From: Sphingobacteriales bacterium
GTDB taxonomy: Bacteria; Bacteroidota; Bacteroidia; Sphingobacteriales; Sphingobacteriaceae
Assembly: GCA_028288165.1 (NCBI GenBank)
Contig: JAQBOG010000014.1
Span: forward strand, 1-64,000
Length of the DNA: 64,000 bases
Reading direction: 5' to 3'
The notes under the pieces are model-generated. The model saw only the letters and a list, made by a program, of their open reading frames with translations, did not search any database and was not told the origin of the DNA. Shown in pieces: positions 593 through 8,636 of this stretch; position 1 is the first letter of the stretch; each line of letters begins with the position of its first letter. The position numbers were made by a program, and so were the translations under genes.

Positions 593-1762
593 TTATTTTG
601 TTCCTTGCCTAAAAACTTCTTCACTATTTAAAAGGTAGGCACCGCTAGTAATTACCACTTCGCCTTTTGTTAAGCCTGACTTTATTTCTACAAGGCCATT
701 ACTTTCTGCACCAAGTTCCACCGTTTTTGAAATAAAGTGTCCGTTGGGAATTCTTAACCACACTTTCGGTTTATCGTGTTCTCTTAAAATAGCATCCTCT
801 GGCACTAATAAGCCATTGGCCTGTGAGTTTCTGATCACTACTTGCGCTGTCATTCCTGGTTTAAGTGTCTGATCCGTGTTTGGGATATTCACTCGTAATA
901 AATTGATTTTTGTATCAGATCCGATTTCAGGATATTGAAAGTCAATTTTTGCACGAACCGATTTTCCGGGTAAATCAGGAAAATTTACAGTCACTTCAGC
1001 ATCTGGATTTATGCTTGCAAGTTGTGAGGTATAAAGTTGGATTTGTGCCCAAAGCGTACCAAGATCTGTCAATTCGACTACGGTTCCTCCAGTAGTTACA
1101 TATTCTCCTTCCGAGATATTTAACGTGGTGATATATCCGCTTTCTGTGCTGTAAAAGCTCGTGATAGTGTTCGAACCTTTTGTTTTTGGCAGGTTCTTAA
1201 TTTGTGATTCCGTCATTCCCCATAATAGCAGCTTTGTTTTTGCGCTTTCAATTAGGCTTTTGAAATCAATGATAGAATTGCCTAAAGCTGCCTTTTTTTC
1301 CAATACTGCAACGTATTCCTGCTTTGCGTTGTTCAATTCTTCCGAATACAAATCATATAACTTTGTTCCCTTGGGTACAAAATCGTTCATGTTTTTGAAA
1401 TACAACTTTTCAATACGCCCTGCAACTTTAGCGCTTACAGCATTCGTTTTCGACTGGTCTAAACTTAAAGTAGCATTCAGCAGTATTTCATTTCCAAGGC
1501 TTCCGGTGCCAATCGTGTCTACTTGTATATTCCCCAATTTTATCTGCTGATCGGTCAAAACCATCTCGCCGTTTTGTTGCTGATTGTTAGTAACCGGAAT
1601 TAAATCCATGTGGCAAATTGGGCACTTGCCGAATTCATCTTCTAAAATATTCGGGTGCATGGAGCAAGTGTACTTCACATTTGCAACAACTGGTTTTTTT
1701 TTGATATTCCCTTTGCAGGATATCAGAAATACTGCGATAAACATTATTAAAATGTACCTCAT
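593..1762 (-). CDS. Efflux RND periplasmic adaptor (CusB type) with N-terminal metal-binding module
   Basis: This is a membrane-fusion protein of 389 residues that links an inner-membrane RND pump to an outer-membrane channel. The N-terminus has a lipoprotein signal ending LISC at Cys16, so it should be lipid-anchored. Residues 31-57 form the small heavy-metal-binding module (YTCSMHP, then CPICHM) found on CusB-like adaptors and copper chaperones. The rest matches the HlyD/CusB core: the 'KVAGRIEKLYFKN' lipoyl region, an alpha-hairpin near 140-190, and beta-barrel segments with 'LKPGMTAQVVI'. It follows the second adaptor gene by 2 bases. Two different adaptors in one operon is unusual; they may form a mixed hexamer or be alternatives. 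The metal is inferred as Cu/Ag from the pump. Confidence 0.9.
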   Translation of the reverse strand: MRYILIMFIAVFLISCKGNIKKKPVVANVKYTCSMHPNILEDEFGKCPICHMDLIPVTNNQQQNGEMVLTDQQIKLGNIQVDTIGTGSLGNEILLNATLSLDQSKTNAVSAKVAGRIEKLYFKNMNDFVPKGTKLYDLYSEELNNAKQEYVAVLEKKAALGNSIIDFKSLIESAKTKLLLWGMTESQIKNLPKTKGSNTITSFYSTESGYITTLNISEGEYVTTGGTVVELTDLGTLWAQIQLYTSQLASINPDAEVTVNFPDLPGKSVRAKIDFQYPEIGSDTKINLLRVNIPNTDQTLKPGMTAQVVIRNSQANGLLVPEDAILREHDKPKVWLRIPNGHFISKTVELGAESNGLVEIKSGLTKGEVVITSGAYLLNSEEVFRQGTK

Positions 1763-1764
1763 AA

Positions 1765-3012
1765 CTATTGTTTTACTTTAATGAAGCTTTCACTATCCAT
1801 TAAATACTGACCATTTTGAGCAACTAAATCAGTAGCCGATAAACCTTTTATAATTTCAATTTTACTTGACGTCTTAATCCCGGTTTCTACTCTTTGAACT
1901 TTAAATCCGTCCCTATCTTTTAGAAGAACTATTTGAGAGTTACCCAAAAAAACAACTGCATCGCTAGGCAACCAGCTCGTAGAAGGTGTGTTAATACTTA
2001 ATGTTGCTTTTAATTGGCTGCCTACCGGGATGTGAGGATGCTCATTATCAAAATTCACCCGGGCGGTAATAGTTTTGTTTTCTTCGCGGATAATAGGCTC
2101 AATAAAATTGATGAATCCTGTAATTGCTCTTTGAGGTTTCACTTCTGAATAAATCTGAACAGGTGTTCCTTTTTTTACAAATTTTTGTTGCTTGGGATTT
2201 ATTTGGATCAAGGCCCATAAATGATTTGGATTATAAACAGAGAACAGTACCTGACCAGCATTTATATACATTCCCTCCTTAATAGAAAACTGTTGCATGC
2301 CTTGATTTGAAGGCATAACAACATTACTTTCATTCTTTTCTATTTCATGGATGTGTCCGTTATAATTACTGTAAAGAGGGGCGCTAAATACGGTTTTGCC
2401 TGTGCGGATGAGTTGATTGATGTTAGCTTGGGATAAACCCAATAATCTTAACCTTTCTTTTGATGCCTGTATTAACGATTGGTTTGCAGCATCGTTTCTT
2501 ACCACATACAATAAATTCTGTTGTGCCGTAAGCAGCTCCGGACTGTAAATGTCCATCACTTTTTGCCCCTTCATCACATCTTGAAAATTATAGCGCATGT
2601 ATAATTTTTCTATCCTTCCGGAAATCTTTGCGGAGATGGTTCCGTTGTATTGGGTATTATAAGCTGCCGTTCCTAAAGCTTCGATGGTTATTTGCTCGCT
2701 TCCATAAGTTGGGCTGATAACTGGAATGGAAGATATAACATAAGAATTAGTTGGCTTTAACAACGTTCCCAAGCTTACAGAATCTTGAGTCTTTACAGTT
2801 GTAGAAGCTCCTTGTTTAACCAAAGCCATTCCGCAAATTGGACAATCACCAGGTTTGTCTCTTTTAATTTGAGGATGCATAGGGCATGTATACACATCAT
2901 TATGAATGTGTTCTGTGGATGTTTGATTTTCCTGAGCCTTATTTTTATTCCGGGTACATGAAGCAAACAGCAAGGGAAGTAATAAGACCGAAATTATTTG
3001 GATGTATTTCAT
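1765..3012 (-). CDS. cusB: Efflux RND periplasmic adaptor (CusB), with N-terminal metal-binding module
   Basis: CusB-family adaptor of 415 residues. A lipoprotein signal ends LFASC at Cys19. Residues 41-65 are the metal-binding module (YTCPMHP ... CPICGMALV), the canonical form with all Cys, His and Met ligands. The core follows family order: 'AKISGRIEKLYMRY' lipoyl half, hairpin, a second lipoyl half, then a barrel with 'VPVGSQLKATL'. It sits between the TolC-type channel gene (3112-4371) and a second adaptor that begins 2 bases after its stop. It should carry Cu(I)/Ag(I) or gate transfer to the CusA-like pump. The symbol is assigned by family and context only. Confidence 0.9.
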   Translation of the reverse strand: MKYIQIISVLLLPLLFASCTRNKNKAQENQTSTEHIHNDVYTCPMHPQIKRDKPGDCPICGMALVKQGASTTVKTQDSVSLGTLLKPTNSYVISSIPVISPTYGSEQITIEALGTAAYNTQYNGTISAKISGRIEKLYMRYNFQDVMKGQKVMDIYSPELLTAQQNLLYVVRNDAANQSLIQASKERLRLLGLSQANINQLIRTGKTVFSAPLYSNYNGHIHEIEKNESNVVMPSNQGMQQFSIKEGMYINAGQVLFSVYNPNHLWALIQINPKQQKFVKKGTPVQIYSEVKPQRAITGFINFIEPIIREENKTITARVNFDNEHPHIPVGSQLKATLSINTPSTSWLPSDAVVFLGNSQIVLLKDRDGFKVQRVETGIKTSSKIEIIKGLSATDLVAQNGQYLMDSESFIKVKQ

Positions 3013-3111: not shown

Positions 3112-4371
3112 TTATTTCCTTTCCAAGATGCGGTCTAATGCAACTTGTAGATTCAAAAGCTGTGCTACCTGATCAAGGTATTCTAGCTGTGTCATATTTA
3201 ATGTTTCCCAAGCCTCGTTTAAAACGGATAGTTCTTCTGTGTTTTGTTCGTAAGCGATTTGAGTAGTCTGGAAATTTTTGCGGAGTGCTGGTAATATGTT
3301 TGTTTCATACAATTTCAATTGTTTCTTCTTCATCACAATTTGACTAAGAGTTCCGCTTGCTTCTCCATTAGCTCTATTTAAAATCAGTTGTTTTTGTTGC
3401 GATAATGCCTCCGATTTCCATTTTAAGCTTTCAATGTTTGCTTTTTGTGTCCGAGTTGACCACCGAACTGGAATCCTAACCATTCCCATCAATGTGTATT
3501 GCATGGGAGTGCCACCAAAACCAAACATGTGATCGTAACGCATACCGAATTCAGGTTTTAGTTTTGACAGTTCTACGGATTGCTGAAGTGCTGTCAATTT
3601 GATTTCCTGGTCAACAGCTTTGATATCGCTTCGGGAGTTTGACAAGATTGCACTATCAATAATATTATCTGAATAGTCTTTTAATACATAACTTGTATCA
3701 ATGTCTAAGCTTTGAAATTGATTACGGTTCATTAATGTATTTAAACTAATGCGTTTTTGTGAAAGGTCATTGTCGATTTCTAAACGCATTTTTTGAATGG
3801 TACCAAGCGATGCTTTTGTCTTATAATAAGCATTCAGCTTGCCCAAACCATTTTTATACCTGATCTCGGTACTTTGAATCATGAATTGCAAGAGCTTTTC
3901 ATTTTGATCAAGAATTTTTGATTTTTTCTTTAAGATGAGCCAGTCAAAGTAATTTGATTTTGCAGTAGCATATAGTTCATTAAGCGCTGAATTTTTTCGT
4001 TCCTGCTCTACCGATGATTCTGCAGATAGATAAGCAGTTTCTGCGTTTTGCAAGCTTCTATTCGGGATCATTTGCTCTGCCGAAATCATGTATTGCCCCA
4101 TTCCTGTGCTACCATCAGCCATTCGTTTCCATAAGGATGGGTTATAAGGTGCCATATACAAACCGGTCCCAAGTTGAGGTGGCATCCAGTTTTTAGCTCC
4201 TTTTGCCGCTTCATCCATAGAACGAATATTGGCCTCACTTACTTTTAGTTCTGGATTTTGAGTTTCTATTTGTTGAAGGATTTGGGAAAGCGTTAACTTA
4301 TCCTGTGCCCGAACTTCGCTGATTAACAAGAGCAAAGCGGTTATTGAAATCGCTATTTTAATCTTTTTCAT
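3112..4371 (-). CDS. TolC-family outer-membrane efflux protein (CusC role)
   Basis: Outer-membrane channel component of the copper RND system, about 419 residues. I place the start at 4371, where the protein opens with MKKIKIAISITALLLLISE, a clear Sec signal peptide ending VRAQ. The open frame continues upstream to 4545, but those 58 codons run through the structured repeat at 4416-4511 and do not look like protein. The mature part shows the two long helical repeats of OEP proteins ('LRSMDEAAKGAKNW' early, and a second half containing 'RIPVRWSTRTQKANIES'), rich in Gln, Lys and Leu. It lies between the pump and adaptor genes on the same strand. Family assignment is firm; substrate is by context. 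Confidence 0.88.
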   Translation of the reverse strand: MKKIKIAISITALLLLISEVRAQDKLTLSQILQQIETQNPELKVSEANIRSMDEAAKGAKNWMPPQLGTGLYMAPYNPSLWKRMADGSTGMGQYMISAEQMIPNRSLQNAETAYLSAESSVEQERKNSALNELYATAKSNYFDWLILKKKSKILDQNEKLLQFMIQSTEIRYKNGLGKLNAYYKTKASLGTIQKMRLEIDNDLSQKRISLNTLMNRNQFQSLDIDTSYVLKDYSDNIIDSAILSNSRSDIKAVDQEIKLTALQQSVELSKLKPEFGMRYDHMFGFGGTPMQYTLMGMVRIPVRWSTRTQKANIESLKWKSEALSQQKQLILNRANGEASGTLSQIVMKKKQLKLYETNILPALRKNFQTTQIAYEQNTEELSVLNEAWETLNMTQLEYLDQVAQLLNLQVALDRILERK

Positions 4372-4415
4372 TTTGTAAAATCGTTTTCTACAATCCTTTA
4401 GAAGAGTTGCTAGGT

Positions 4416-4511
4416 GCGTTAGGGATAGCAGTGAAAATCCTTTTTTGTGGTCGTCGGAAAGAGGGGAGGGAAGACAAAAAAGATTGCAACGAATAGCCCG
4501 CCCGAACGCCC
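4416..4511 (+). repeat. Structured interspersed repeat, copy 1
   Basis: A 96-base member of a four-copy family. It begins GCGTTAGGGATAGCAGTGAA and ends GCCCGCCCGAACGCCC. Outer bases GCGTT pair with AACGC. The central arm pairs TTTTTTGT with ACAAAAAA around a GC-rich loop. It lies inside the copper operon between the pump and channel genes. Other copies: 24489-24568, 38870-38947, 62167-62263. Confidence 0.85.
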
Positions 4512-4549
4512 AAAACTTATTTGATATCACCTTTAGCTTCCTCATTAAA

Positions 4550-6511
4550 TCAGTGTTTAGTTTCTAATACTTCCAGCTTGCCGAGCTTTTTCAATTCATA
4601 TTCTTTGGTCATTAAAAATATAATGGGCGTTACCAGCAAAATGTGGATGGACGAGGTCAGAACGCCGCCGATCATGGGTAGAACAATTGGGATCATGACG
4701 TCGCTGCCAGCGCCGGTACTCCATAAAATTGGAACGAGTCCGAATAAGGATACGCAAACAGTCATCAACTTGGGCCGAAGTCGCTTTGCTGCTCCCTCGA
4801 TTACATATTCTTGTAGATCGTCTCTGGTTATGTTTTCGGATGAATTGCCTTTTAAGGCCACCAATTGCTGCATGGCATCATTCAGGTAAATCACCATGAC
4901 GATTCCGGTTTCAACTGCCAAACCAAACAAGGCAATAAAACCGACTGCTACTGCTACAGATAAGTTGACGCCCCAGAAATACACCATAAAGGCGCCTCCA
5001 ATGAGTGCAAATGGTATGGATATGAGGCTGAAAAAAGCTTCTCTGACCGAATGAAATGCGAAATACATGCAAGCGAATATGATCACTAACACAATTGGAA
5101 TAATTAGCTTCATGGTTTTTTCGCCCCGGATTAAATTTTCATATTGACCGCTCCATTCTATAAAATAGCCTTTTGGCATGAATTGAATCATGTTATCTAA
5201 TCGCTTCCTGGCGTCTTCCACAGTACTGCCCAAATCACGCTCACGAACGTTGAATAAAACGGTTCCGCGTAATAAAGCGTTTTCAGAATTGATCATCGGA
5301 GGGCCTTCTGATAGTTTGATATCTGCAACGGCTTCCAGCGGAATGGGGCCAAAACCGTCTGTTTGAACCTGCAATCTTTTAATGGCTGTTAGGCTATTTC
5401 TAAACTCTTGACCGAACCGGGCATTTACAGAAAATCGTTGTCGGCCTTCAATAGTTGTGGTCAGTTTCATCCCGCCAAGGGCAGTTTCAATTAAGGTATT
5501 TACATCGTCAACCGTTAAGCCATATCGCCCAATCTCTTCCCGTTTTATAGCAATATCGAGGTATTTACCACCTGTAATTGGTTCTACATACAAATCTTTT
5601 ACACCTTCAATTCCTTCGAGCTGTCGACGAACCTGTTGTGCAAACGCATTAATAGTATCGAGGTTTTGACCATATACTTTTAAGCCCACATCTGTACGAA
5701 TGCCAGTGGAAAGCATGTTGATCCGGTTAATGATGGGTTGTGTCCAACCGTTAACTACCCCAGGTATTTGAAGTTTATCATTTAGTTCGTTGATAATATC
5801 GTTCTTGGTTTTTCCTTCCCGCCATTCGGCCTTAGGCTTCAACATCACGATCGTTTCGATCATGCTAATAGGTGAATTATCAGTGGCTGTATTTGCCCGA
5901 CCAGCTTTGCCTAAAACATGACTTACTTCTGGCACCGTCTTGATAATCTTATCTTGAACCTGTAAAATGCGTTTCACTTCAGAGTTTGACACGTCAGGTA
6001 AGGTAACCGGCATAAATAAAATGGAGCCTTCATCAAGCGGTGGCATAAATTCGCGACCTAAACTTAAAAGCAAAGGGATACTGATTAACAAGGCCAGGAT
6101 ATTAATACCGATAGTTGTTTTGCGCCATTTTATACAGCTTCTGATAAGGGGCTCATACCAACCTTCCAACTTTCGGTTAACCGGATTTTCATGTTCTGAC
6201 CGGAAACGACCTTTCATGAAAATGGAAATTAAAACCGGCGCAAGTGTAATCACCAATATGGCATCAACCACCAGGATGAAAGTTTTGGTGTATGCCAATG
6301 GTCCGAATAATTTACCTTCCTGACCTGTGAGTAAAAAAACTGGTAAGAACGAAGCAATGATAATCACAGTCGAGAAGAAAACTCCACGTGATACTTGCTT
6401 ACAAGCACTAGCTATGATGTTTAAGCGAATACCTTCCGGGATTTTTAAGTAACCATCTTCTTTTCCACTTGGTGATGGTCTGGATGTGAATATATTGAAG
6501 AATTTCTTCAT
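4550..6511 (-). CDS. cusA: CusA-type copper/silver RND pump, C-terminal part
   Basis: 653 residues covering roughly the last 60% of a CusA/CzcA-family heavy-metal RND permease. It begins in the cytoplasmic loop after TM4 and continues through TM5-TM12 and the second porter half. Three methionines that line the CusA periplasmic metal site appear conserved by motif: 'NMLSTG', 'LGGMKL' and 'PPMINSEN'. This supports Cu(I)/Ag(I) over Co/Zn/Cd. Its ATG overlaps the stop of the N-terminal part as ATGA (6508-6511). A -1 shift in the A6 run just before would join the two parts into one pump of about 1,080 residues, the usual family length. The gene is therefore either a translationally coupled split pump or a one-base indel in a single cusA. 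Confidence 0.88.
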   Translation of the reverse strand: MKKFFNIFTSRPSPSGKEDGYLKIPEGIRLNIIASACKQVSRGVFFSTVIIIASFLPVFLLTGQEGKLFGPLAYTKTFILVVDAILVITLAPVLISIFMKGRFRSEHENPVNRKLEGWYEPLIRSCIKWRKTTIGINILALLISIPLLLSLGREFMPPLDEGSILFMPVTLPDVSNSEVKRILQVQDKIIKTVPEVSHVLGKAGRANTATDNSPISMIETIVMLKPKAEWREGKTKNDIINELNDKLQIPGVVNGWTQPIINRINMLSTGIRTDVGLKVYGQNLDTINAFAQQVRRQLEGIEGVKDLYVEPITGGKYLDIAIKREEIGRYGLTVDDVNTLIETALGGMKLTTTIEGRQRFSVNARFGQEFRNSLTAIKRLQVQTDGFGPIPLEAVADIKLSEGPPMINSENALLRGTVLFNVRERDLGSTVEDARKRLDNMIQFMPKGYFIEWSGQYENLIRGEKTMKLIIPIVLVIIFACMYFAFHSVREAFFSLISIPFALIGGAFMVYFWGVNLSVAVAVGFIALFGLAVETGIVMVIYLNDAMQQLVALKGNSSENITRDDLQEYVIEGAAKRLRPKLMTVCVSLFGLVPILWSTGAGSDVMIPIVLPMIGGVLTSSIHILLVTPIIFLMTKEYELKKLGKLEVLETKH

Positions 6512-7791
6512 GATTTTTTGTTTTCAGGATTATTTTGCCACTCTGAAAGTTTACGATATGAGTTTTCTGACATGATTATCCCGTTGTCTACGATGACCCC
6601 AATAGCCAGTGCAATACCCGTTAAGGACATGATATTTGATGACACACCAAATGCGTTTAACAGAATAAAGCTGATTGCAATTGTGACCGGGATTTGGATG
6701 ATGATGCTTAAAGCACTTCGCCAATGGAAAAGGAATAGGATCACTACCAAGCTTACGACGATGATTTCTTCCAGCAGTTTTTCTTTGATAGTTTTGATGG
6801 CCGCTTCTATCAGCGTGCTGCGATCATAAGCTATATTGAACGAAACACCTTCGGGAAGACCTTTCTGCACTTCGCCCATTTTTAGTTTAACGGCTTTAAT
6901 TACGTTATCTGCATTTTCACCATACCGCATTACTACGATACCGCCTACAGCTTCACCTTCACCATTTTCATCAAAAATTCCCAGTCGCAAATCGCCTCCC
7001 ATTTGTATGGATGCAACATCTTTGATTAGTACTGGTATGCCTTTGTTGTTGGCTACTGCGATATTTTCGAGATCGGTTTTGTTTTTGATATAGCCAAGAC
7101 CTCGGATGATATAGGCCTGATCGCTCATTTCAAACTTTCGCCCGCCAACGTCATTGTTATTTGCCTTTACTTTCTCCATCACATCCCGCATGGAAACATT
7201 ATAATATTGAAGCTTCAAGGGGTCTATGACTAACTGATATTGCTTTTCGAAACCTCCGAATGATGCTACCTCGGAAACACCGGGAACCGTTTGAAGGGCT
7301 AATTTGATATACCAATCCTGTAAAGCTCGTTGCTCACCCAGATCCATTTTTTTTGCATCCAGCGTATACCAGAATATATGGCCTACACCGGTACCATCTG
7401 GCCCAAGTGTGGGTGTAATGCCATCTGGAAGCAAGCGTTGGGCATAATTAAGGCGTTCGAGTACACGGGTTCTTGCCCAATAAATATCTGCGTTATCTTC
7501 GAAGATGATATAAACGAAACTCATTCCGAACATGGAGGTACCTCGAATATTTTTCACTTTGGCAATTCCCTGCAGGTTGCTCACGAGCGGATAAGTAACC
7601 TGATCTTCGATTACCTGGGGACTTCTGCCCATCCACTCTGTGAAAACAATAACCTGATTCTCTGAAAGATCTGGAATTGCATCAATGGGATTTTCACTAA
7701 CGGCATAAACTCCCCATGCAAATAAAATGACGGCGCTTACCAGGATGATAAACCGGTTTCGTAATGAAAAATCAATGATAGAAGGTATCAT
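6508..7791 (-). CDS. cusA: CusA-type copper/silver RND pump, N-terminal part
   Basis: 427 residues corresponding to the N-terminal 40% of CusA: TM1 ('FIILVSAVILFAWGVYAV'), the first periplasmic porter half, and TM2-TM4. It includes the proton-relay Asp in 'AIGVIVDNGI' (the position known as D405 in E. coli CusA). It ends with a hydrophilic tail 'NNPENKKS' in the loop where the C-terminal frame takes over, with an ATGA overlap. The metal-binding lipoprotein gene lies 4 bases upstream, so translation is probably coupled along the operon. If it is a true split, both halves must co-assemble. If it is an indel, this fragment alone cannot transport. Confidence 0.88.
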   Translation of the reverse strand: MIPSIIDFSLRNRFIILVSAVILFAWGVYAVSENPIDAIPDLSENQVIVFTEWMGRSPQVIEDQVTYPLVSNLQGIAKVKNIRGTSMFGMSFVYIIFEDNADIYWARTRVLERLNYAQRLLPDGITPTLGPDGTGVGHIFWYTLDAKKMDLGEQRALQDWYIKLALQTVPGVSEVASFGGFEKQYQLVIDPLKLQYYNVSMRDVMEKVKANNNDVGGRKFEMSDQAYIIRGLGYIKNKTDLENIAVANNKGIPVLIKDVASIQMGGDLRLGIFDENGEGEAVGGIVVMRYGENADNVIKAVKLKMGEVQKGLPEGVSFNIAYDRSTLIEAAIKTIKEKLLEEIIVVSLVVILFLFHWRSALSIIIQIPVTIAISFILLNAFGVSSNIMSLTGIALAIGVIVDNGIIMSENSYRKLSEWQNNPENKKS

Positions 7792-7795
7792 TTGA

Positions 7796-8077
7796 TTAGT
7801 TGCTTTTATTGAGATGTTCTAGGCTGTCCGTTAATACGGCGGCACTATCCGGTAGCTGGGATGTTTCATTTTTCACTAAGTCCATTCCGCATTTAGGGCA
7901 TTTGCCTGGCTTATTACTGGTTACTTCCGGATGCATGGTACAGGTGTATGTTGCTGCGGTTAATGAATGGGAAGCCGAATCTGTAGAAGTGGCTTCAGTG
8001 GGCTTAGATGTTTGATTGCAAGCAGAAACGATTGCAAACAATGCGATAGCAATAGCTGAATGAAATAGGGTTTTCAT
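7796..8077 (-). CDS. Small heavy-metal-binding lipoprotein
   Basis: A 93-residue protein, the first gene of the efflux operon. The lipoprotein signal ends IVSAC at Cys20, followed by a Ser/Thr-rich linker. Residues 44-69 are the heavy-metal-binding module (YTCTMHP ... CPKCGMDLV), the same module fused to both adaptors downstream. A periplasmic, membrane-anchored copper chaperone that hands metal to the adaptors is the most likely role. The stop is 4 bases before the pump start. The upstream gap to 8252 holds only a short AGCTGAT repeat. Confidence 0.85.
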   Translation of the reverse strand: MKTLFHSAIAIALFAIVSACNQTSKPTEATSTDSASHSLTAATYTCTMHPEVTSNKPGKCPKCGMDLVKNETSQLPDSAAVLTDSLEHLNKSN

Positions 8078-8212
8078 GTTAAGGATTTTGGTTGTAGATA
8101 GGTTTAGGCTAATAGCAAAAAGACTAAAGCTTAAGCTGCATAGCGATTAACCGAAAACGTTCGATAAGATTTAATTAGTAATATGGAATGCGAGCAAAGG
8201 GTTGCTATAAGT

Positions 8213-8245
8213 GCTGATAGCTGATTGCTCAAAGCTGACAGCTAA
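8213..8245. repeat. Short degenerate AGCTGAT repeat
   Basis: Intergenic run GCTGATAGCTGATTGCTC followed by AAAGCTGACAGCTAA: imperfect repeats of AGCTGAT with partial dyad symmetry. It lies just downstream of the HYC_CC_PP gene on the minus strand. Confidence 0.5.
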
Positions 8246-8252
8246 TGAAAAA

Positions 8253-8636
8253 TCAGATTCTGTAGGTACAGTTTAATATATAGGAGGGAGTACTCTGATA
8301 TTTGGGAGGACCCTTTATTAAATAGGAAATATAATCGGTAACAGAAATAGAATCAAAGGAGAATACACTAAATACTGGTAAAAATGCTAGTTCCTGAAAC
8401 TTAGCATCAATCGTTACCTTTTCAGAAGAAACATGGCTGTCTTTAATTTTAAAAGATTCCTTTTCATTTTTGCAACAGCCGGCTGCTTTTGTGTCTTTTT
8501 CAGCCCGAAGGTGATCTGGATTAGCTACGAAACTAACCGACTCTAACTTACCACAGCAGTAGAACTTGTTCACAGCCAATCCGACAACGGAAAGGGTATA
8601 AATAAAGATCAAAAATATAGCTGCTGATTTTTTCAC
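8253..8636 (-). CDS. HYC_CC_PP family protein
   Basis: A 127-residue protein with an N-terminal hydrophobic signal or anchor (MKKSAAIFLIFIYTLSVVGL). It then shows the three motifs after which the family is named: an aromatic-Tyr-Cys-Cys motif (FYCCG), a paired Cys (GCCKNE) and a Pro-Pro near the C-terminus (KGPPKY). These proteins occur in Bacteroidota, often beside copper or heavy-metal transporters. The function is unknown, but the Cys pairs and the neighbouring Cus-like operon suggest periplasmic metal binding or sensing. It lies 175 bases upstream of the efflux operon on the same strand. Confidence 0.8.
   Translation of the reverse strand: MKKSAAIFLIFIYTLSVVGLAVNKFYCCGKLESVSFVANPDHLRAEKDTKAAGCCKNEKESFKIKDSHVSSEKVTIDAKFQELAFLPVFSVFSFDSISVTDYISYLIKGPPKYQSTPSYILNCTYRI

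Follow-up and report, generated by a model that had tools for sequence, protein, structure and literature searches.

In the window, by which we mean the whole 64,000-nucleotide stretch analysed (contig JAQBOG010000014.1 of a Sphingobacteriales bacterium), the coding sequence for a CusA-like heavy-metal efflux pump is divided between two overlapping open reading frames. The question is whether the locus encodes a genuine two-gene pump, a single protein joined by recoding, or a damaged gene. The initial annotation had named a functional split, programmed or transcriptional slippage and a one-base deletion as explanations, and favoured testing the first. Its description of the locus proved exact on re-reading of the frames: a 427-residue frame (N-half, stop codon TGA at 6510-6508) overlaps a 653-residue frame (C-half, start codon ATG at 6511-6509) at an ATGA junction (Table 1). 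The C-half is read in the -1 frame with respect to the N-half, and shifting once by -1 would indeed join the two frames. Hydropathy analysis identified four hydrophobic transmembrane (TM) segments in the N-half and eight in the C-half, so the break sits after TM4, in a cytoplasmic loop, as had been proposed. A TGA at 6526-6524 (minus strand) closes the C-half frame upstream, thus only ∼ 16 nt are open in both frames.

Table 1. Features of the split pump locus and its operon, in window coordinates.
Feature	Position	Strand	Evidence
HYC_CC_PP family protein, first gene of conserved cluster	8253..8636	-	NF047658 above cut-off
Small lipoprotein-like protein, heavy-metal binding domain	7796..8077	-	PF19335, 54 bits
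CusA N-half, 427 aa: TM1, first periplasmic porter half, TM2-TM4	6508..7791	-	ORF, PF00873, 4 TM
A6 run ahead of C-half start; incidental	6514..6519	-	inside AACAAAAAATCATGA
ATGA stop/start overlap of N-half and C-half genes	6508..6511	-	window letters
C-half N-terminal extension ahead of TM5, Lys-rich start (MKKFFNIFTSRPSPSGKEDGYLKIPEGIRLNII)	6410..6511	-	loop comparison
CusA C-half, 653 aa: basic N-terminal extension, TM5-TM12, second porter half	4550..6511	-	ORF, PF00873, 8 TM
CusC-like TolC-family outer-membrane channel	3112..4545	-	PF02321
CusB-like periplasmic adaptor 2, heavy-metal binding domain	1765..3012	-	PF16576, PF19335
CusB-like periplasmic adaptor 1, heavy-metal binding domain	593..1762	-	PF16576, PF19335

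The N-half aligns with residues 8-431 of the Escherichia coli CusA chain and the C-half with residues 441-1042; together they thus retain the conserved pump in full. The PF00873 profile is divided in the same way (positions 1-420 and 421-1019). The CusA/CzcA heavy-metal RND model TIGR00914 (length 1051) is matched over 1-428 by the N-half (475 bits) and over 436-1037 by the C-half (619 bits); the two together match the whole model, and neither alone reaches its curated cut-off of 701 bits. Likewise, only both proteins together supply the 12 TM segments (4 + 8) and two periplasmic loops of an RND permease. AlphaFold modelled each half in isolation with low confidence (mean pLDDT 64.6 and 61.3, from 29-sequence alignments), and no structural conclusion draws on these models; CusA is the best match of each.

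The proton-relay and metal-site motifs that the initial annotation had described as conserved are so across the family. Asp402 of the window N-half corresponds to the relay residue D405 of CusA, and Met167, Met217 and Met266 of the C-half to M573, M623 and M672, the triad of the periplasmic cleft; the C-half also carries Glu534 and Lys581. Equivalents of D405, M573, M623, M672, E625 and D617 are present in 53/53 split representatives, that of E939 in 33/33 split rows and that of K984 in 29/33. The N-half therefore contributes the relay Asp, while the C-half supplies the other two relay residues, Glu and Lys, along with all three Met of the copper site. Since the conserved relay residues are divided between the two proteins, one working protomer would need both chains. 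The Met triad and the operon neighbours point to copper/silver as the putative substrate.

As in CusCBA tripartite systems, a periplasmic adaptor and an outer-membrane channel are encoded in the same operon. The gene order HYC_CC_PP, small metal-binding protein, N-half, C-half, CusC, CusB2, CusB1 is widely kept, with the first two genes sometimes missing. The small metal-binding gene directly precedes the N-half gene in many relatives, and a CusC-like gene comes next after the C-half in most of those compared. The CusC frame in the window, if read from its first ATG, is probably ∼ 58 aa too long; a signal-peptide Met near 4371 is likely the true start. Directly past the operon, near the contig end, are two tandem tRNA-Glu(ttc) genes (202-274 and 382-454). 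On a Mucilaginibacter robiniae plasmid (L173, 12448-13808) one CusB-like adaptor of the operon is encoded as two adjacent genes (232 + 221 aa) with an ATGA overlap, which may reflect either damage or another natural split. In Sphingobacterium multivorum NCTC11343 (L054, 12763-13946) the coding sequence of the second CusB-like adaptor is interrupted by a change of frame and is possibly a pseudogene.

Comparison of the junction in relatives, which the initial annotation had proposed, gave the reverse of its refuting outcome (one uninterrupted frame in all relatives): throughout the class Bacteroidia, orthologues are divided at one common site within the cytoplasmic TM4-TM5 loop. When 100 related genomes were searched with the N-half, the orthologous open frame was nearly always ∼ 420-475 aa long. 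This is equally true of the 80 best loci in a GTDB-wide scan, among which are isolates of Pedobacter, Sphingobacterium, Mucilaginibacter, Chitinophaga, Flavobacterium, Chryseobacterium, Kaistella, Epilithonimonas and Lacibacter. Of 64 strong matches in a class-wide draw of 395 genomes, 59 have an N-half frame of 421-499 aa, four are fused and one is partial; the partial match (G582:C41:2227-3033) holds N-half residues 1-269 only, in a 272-aa frame, the copy being either truncated or broken. Outside Bacteroidia, the matches from a phylum-wide draw were at most 61% identical and mostly single frames of ∼ 1045-1160 aa, the exceptions being contig-end or broken fragments and two rearranged loci (L162, L163). 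A pair of neighbouring RND permease genes, both annotated 'efflux RND transporter permease subunit' and adjoining multicopper oxidase or copper ATPase genes, is also present on complete plasmids from isolates of Haliscomenobacter, Runella and Mucilaginibacter.

The window pump shares 85% identity with its counterpart in Pedobacter glucosidilyticus, which belongs to another genus of the same family, but only ∼ 68-71% with split pumps from the window's own genus. Related copies are found on plasmids, one of them conjugative. Taken together, this suggests horizontal movement or old paralogy. On a Spirosoma linguale plasmid (pSLIN01, L172) the RND permease region at 5001-8353 has no listed gene and the locus tag Slin_6821 is absent from the gene table; perhaps the annotators flagged the region as broken. 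More distant heavy-metal RND relatives (∼ 45% identity) in nine genomes (G022, G035, G036, G050, G057, G064, G074, G086 and G098) have frames of ∼ 1275-1325 aa, longer than a normal permease and possibly C-terminal fusions.

An error in sequencing or assembly, or the recent loss of one base that turned a single gene into a pseudogene, has virtually no probability: the assembly is only 68.6% complete and one -1 step would restore the frame, but the same break occurs at 112 distinct junctions and in the complete isolate plasmids, junction frame and spacing differ between relatives, the nine other RND genes of the assembly above the Pfam cut-off are intact (all single open frames, 1019-1145 aa), CusA being the only broken one among those compared, and both halves are under strong purifying selection. 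For both halves dN/dS is ∼ 0.01-0.04 in the relative pairs close enough to measure, the window and its own nearest relatives being saturated at synonymous sites; these values give no sign of the relaxed selection expected of a pseudogene. The one-base deletion considered in the initial annotation is thus excluded, the break being conserved at over 100 loci whose junction sequences are unrelated.

Programmed -1 frameshifting or transcriptional slippage at the A run, giving a fused pump alone or beside the halves, would fit the window itself, where the A6 run falls within the 16-nt stretch open in both frames. The junctions of the relatives make it highly unlikely. At the 125 loci with both halves in order, the spacing ranges from -23 to +620 nt, most commonly -4 (29/125), +2 and -11. 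Removal of identical junctions and of one of two copies of the window leaves 112 distinct junctions. The C-half frame is at -1 in 45 of these and at +1, which needs the opposite shift, in 46; 12 have an in-frame stop and nine lack any shared open stretch. Neither a conserved slippery site nor a shared open stretch, the marks of a programmed frameshift, was found as a common property, stop or missing overlap accounting for 21/112. No canonical slippery heptamer (X_XXY_YYZ) occurs at the 45 distinct -1 junctions, and a run of at least six A or T at only five; the A6 run, where the initial annotation had placed the joining step, is incidental. The mRNA fold predicted for the junction has no significant advantage over those of shuffled sequences (z -1.05). 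Two loci have the order C-half, CusC, CusB2, CusB1, N-half (in L162 with a small metal-binding gene before the N-half); as the halves are at opposite operon ends, they lie ∼ 3.9 kb (L162) and ∼ 3.6 kb (L163) apart. In relatives of the same genus and family, a Shine-Dalgarno-like AGGAGG is often found shortly 5' of the C-half ATG. The junction frames, the missing heptamers and the distant halves thus rule out recoding at the A6 run as the shared mechanism, and two genes are the best explanation because the break is conserved while the junctions vary so much. A low-level fused product in the window strain alone is conceivable.

The halves could also be two proteins that act separately, the N-half for example regulating another RND pump and the C-half working alone or with another partner. 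They are independent genes and can move apart, as such a model would have it. However, the proton relay needs the Asp of the N-half plus the Glu and Lys of the C-half, all of which are conserved, natural re-fused versions exist, and the halves are strictly co-inherited. A C-half is present for every N-half locus with flanks long enough to tell, and the distance matrices of the two halves are correlated with r = 0.90 (permuted maximum 0.32; 0/1000 permutations as high). We consider separate action very improbable.

The locus is thus, with high probability, a genuine split heavy-metal RND pump, encoded by two genes of one operon whose products rebuild a single CusA-like protomer; judged from sequence, it is best read as an obligate two-polypeptide CusA. 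The functional split that had been singled out for testing at the outset is supported by the conserved same-site break, the varied and independent junctions, purifying selection, the conserved functional residues and co-inheritance. From these observations we infer physical assembly, stoichiometry and the copper substrate as follows. Both halves would be translated from one mRNA by coupled or independent initiation, here most likely coupled by the ATGA. The N-half (TM1-4) and the C-half (TM5-12) would be inserted into the membrane separately and associate non-covalently into one CusA-like protomer. Three N/C pairs would then presumably form a trimer together with the operon's own CusB and CusC proteins, and the assembled pump would export Cu(I)/Ag(I). 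Split membrane transporters are able to assemble in other families, for example LacY.

How the split arose was addressed with a tree of 66 sequences and 1053 columns, most of the junction loop being left out. Seven fused proteins of other classes fall outside a well-supported group of 53 split and six fused sequences. The split and fused states need five changes on this tree, and the AU test rejects a tree in which the split forms make up a single clade free of fused sequences (p 2e-69). With the fused outgroup, we read the five changes as one split and four re-fusions, in the lineages of L146, of L145, L164 and L165, of L078 and of L060; L150 is a long branch and its position is unsure. Many independent splits at a permissive loop would be an alternative, as the change counts alone give no direction. 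We regard it as improbable, since splits alone need clearly more than five changes. Moreover, the fused L078 still carries a YRIP motif of the kind usual near the start of split C-halves, which is consistent with a fusion scar. Most likely, then, there was one split in an ancestor of the Bacteroidia clade of this pump family and about four later re-fusions, a direction given by parsimony.

The split forms differ from fused ones in the length of the TM4-TM5 loop. This loop has 26 aa in the six fused outgroup loci measured and 28-34 aa in the re-fused forms, versus ∼ 51 aa in the split forms (∼ 18 aa of N-half tail and ∼ 30 aa before TM5). The added part is a basic N-terminus gained by the split C-halves, with a mean net charge of ∼ +3 in the first 12 residues and at least two Lys/Arg within residues 2-8 in 89%; the basic extension is missing from the fused relatives. 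According to the positive-inside rule, basic residues favour the cytoplasmic side. The extension therefore suits a topogenic signal for a cytoplasmic N-terminus and probably fixes the N-in orientation of TM5.

We speculate that the split might itself be adaptive, separate halves letting the cell control pump assembly, so that the clade would possess a regulated two-part RND pump. Control could be exerted by making the halves in unequal amounts, by joining them in a metal-dependent way, or by swapping halves between the paralogous pump copies that some genomes contain. We hold this idea tentatively and think it unlikely.

RND efflux permeases are classically treated as single 12-TM polypeptides, from which a conserved two-protein version departs. 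A search of an open-access literature library turned up no account of a naturally divided CusA/CzcA. The halves are annotated in databases under generic names only, which their failure to reach the TIGR00914 cut-off would explain. For the same reason, copper-pump genes in Bacteroidota may be under-counted, double-counted or called broken, which bears on metal-resistance surveys. A proton relay divided between chains provides a natural system for questions of RND folding, insertion and assembly, with re-fused forms of ∼ 80% identity in isolates such as Flavihumibacter profundi as natural controls.

Among the closest known systems is E. coli CusA (PDB 3K07, 3NE5), the HME-RND copper/silver exporter of CusCFBA; the two halves together cover the whole of CusA. 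The split pump shares with it M573/M623/M672, D405, E939 and K984 as well as an operon with CusB and CusC. E. coli CusA is one polypeptide, whereas the split pump consists of two, divided between TM4 and TM5; and unlike CusCFBA, its operon encodes a pair of CusB-like adaptors, and CusF is missing from the neighbouring genes compared. The closest fused relatives outside the clade are CusA-like proteins of other Bacteroidota classes (for example L152-L155; 57-61% identical over the N-half), which are single frames of ∼ 1050-1160 aa without the basic extension. In SecD/SecF, a translocase of the RND superfamily, a 12-TM unit is formed by two polypeptides of adjacent genes, divided 6 + 6 at the internal repeat. 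The split CusA resembles it in building a 12-TM RND unit from two adjacent genes, but its 4 + 8 division falls within the first repeat, and it belongs to the metal efflux pumps. With MdtBC and MuxBC it has in common that two inner-membrane gene products make up one pump. However, MdtB and MdtC are two full-length homologues that arose by gene duplication (PMC7015380), whereas the halves of the split CusA match successive, non-overlapping parts of the model.
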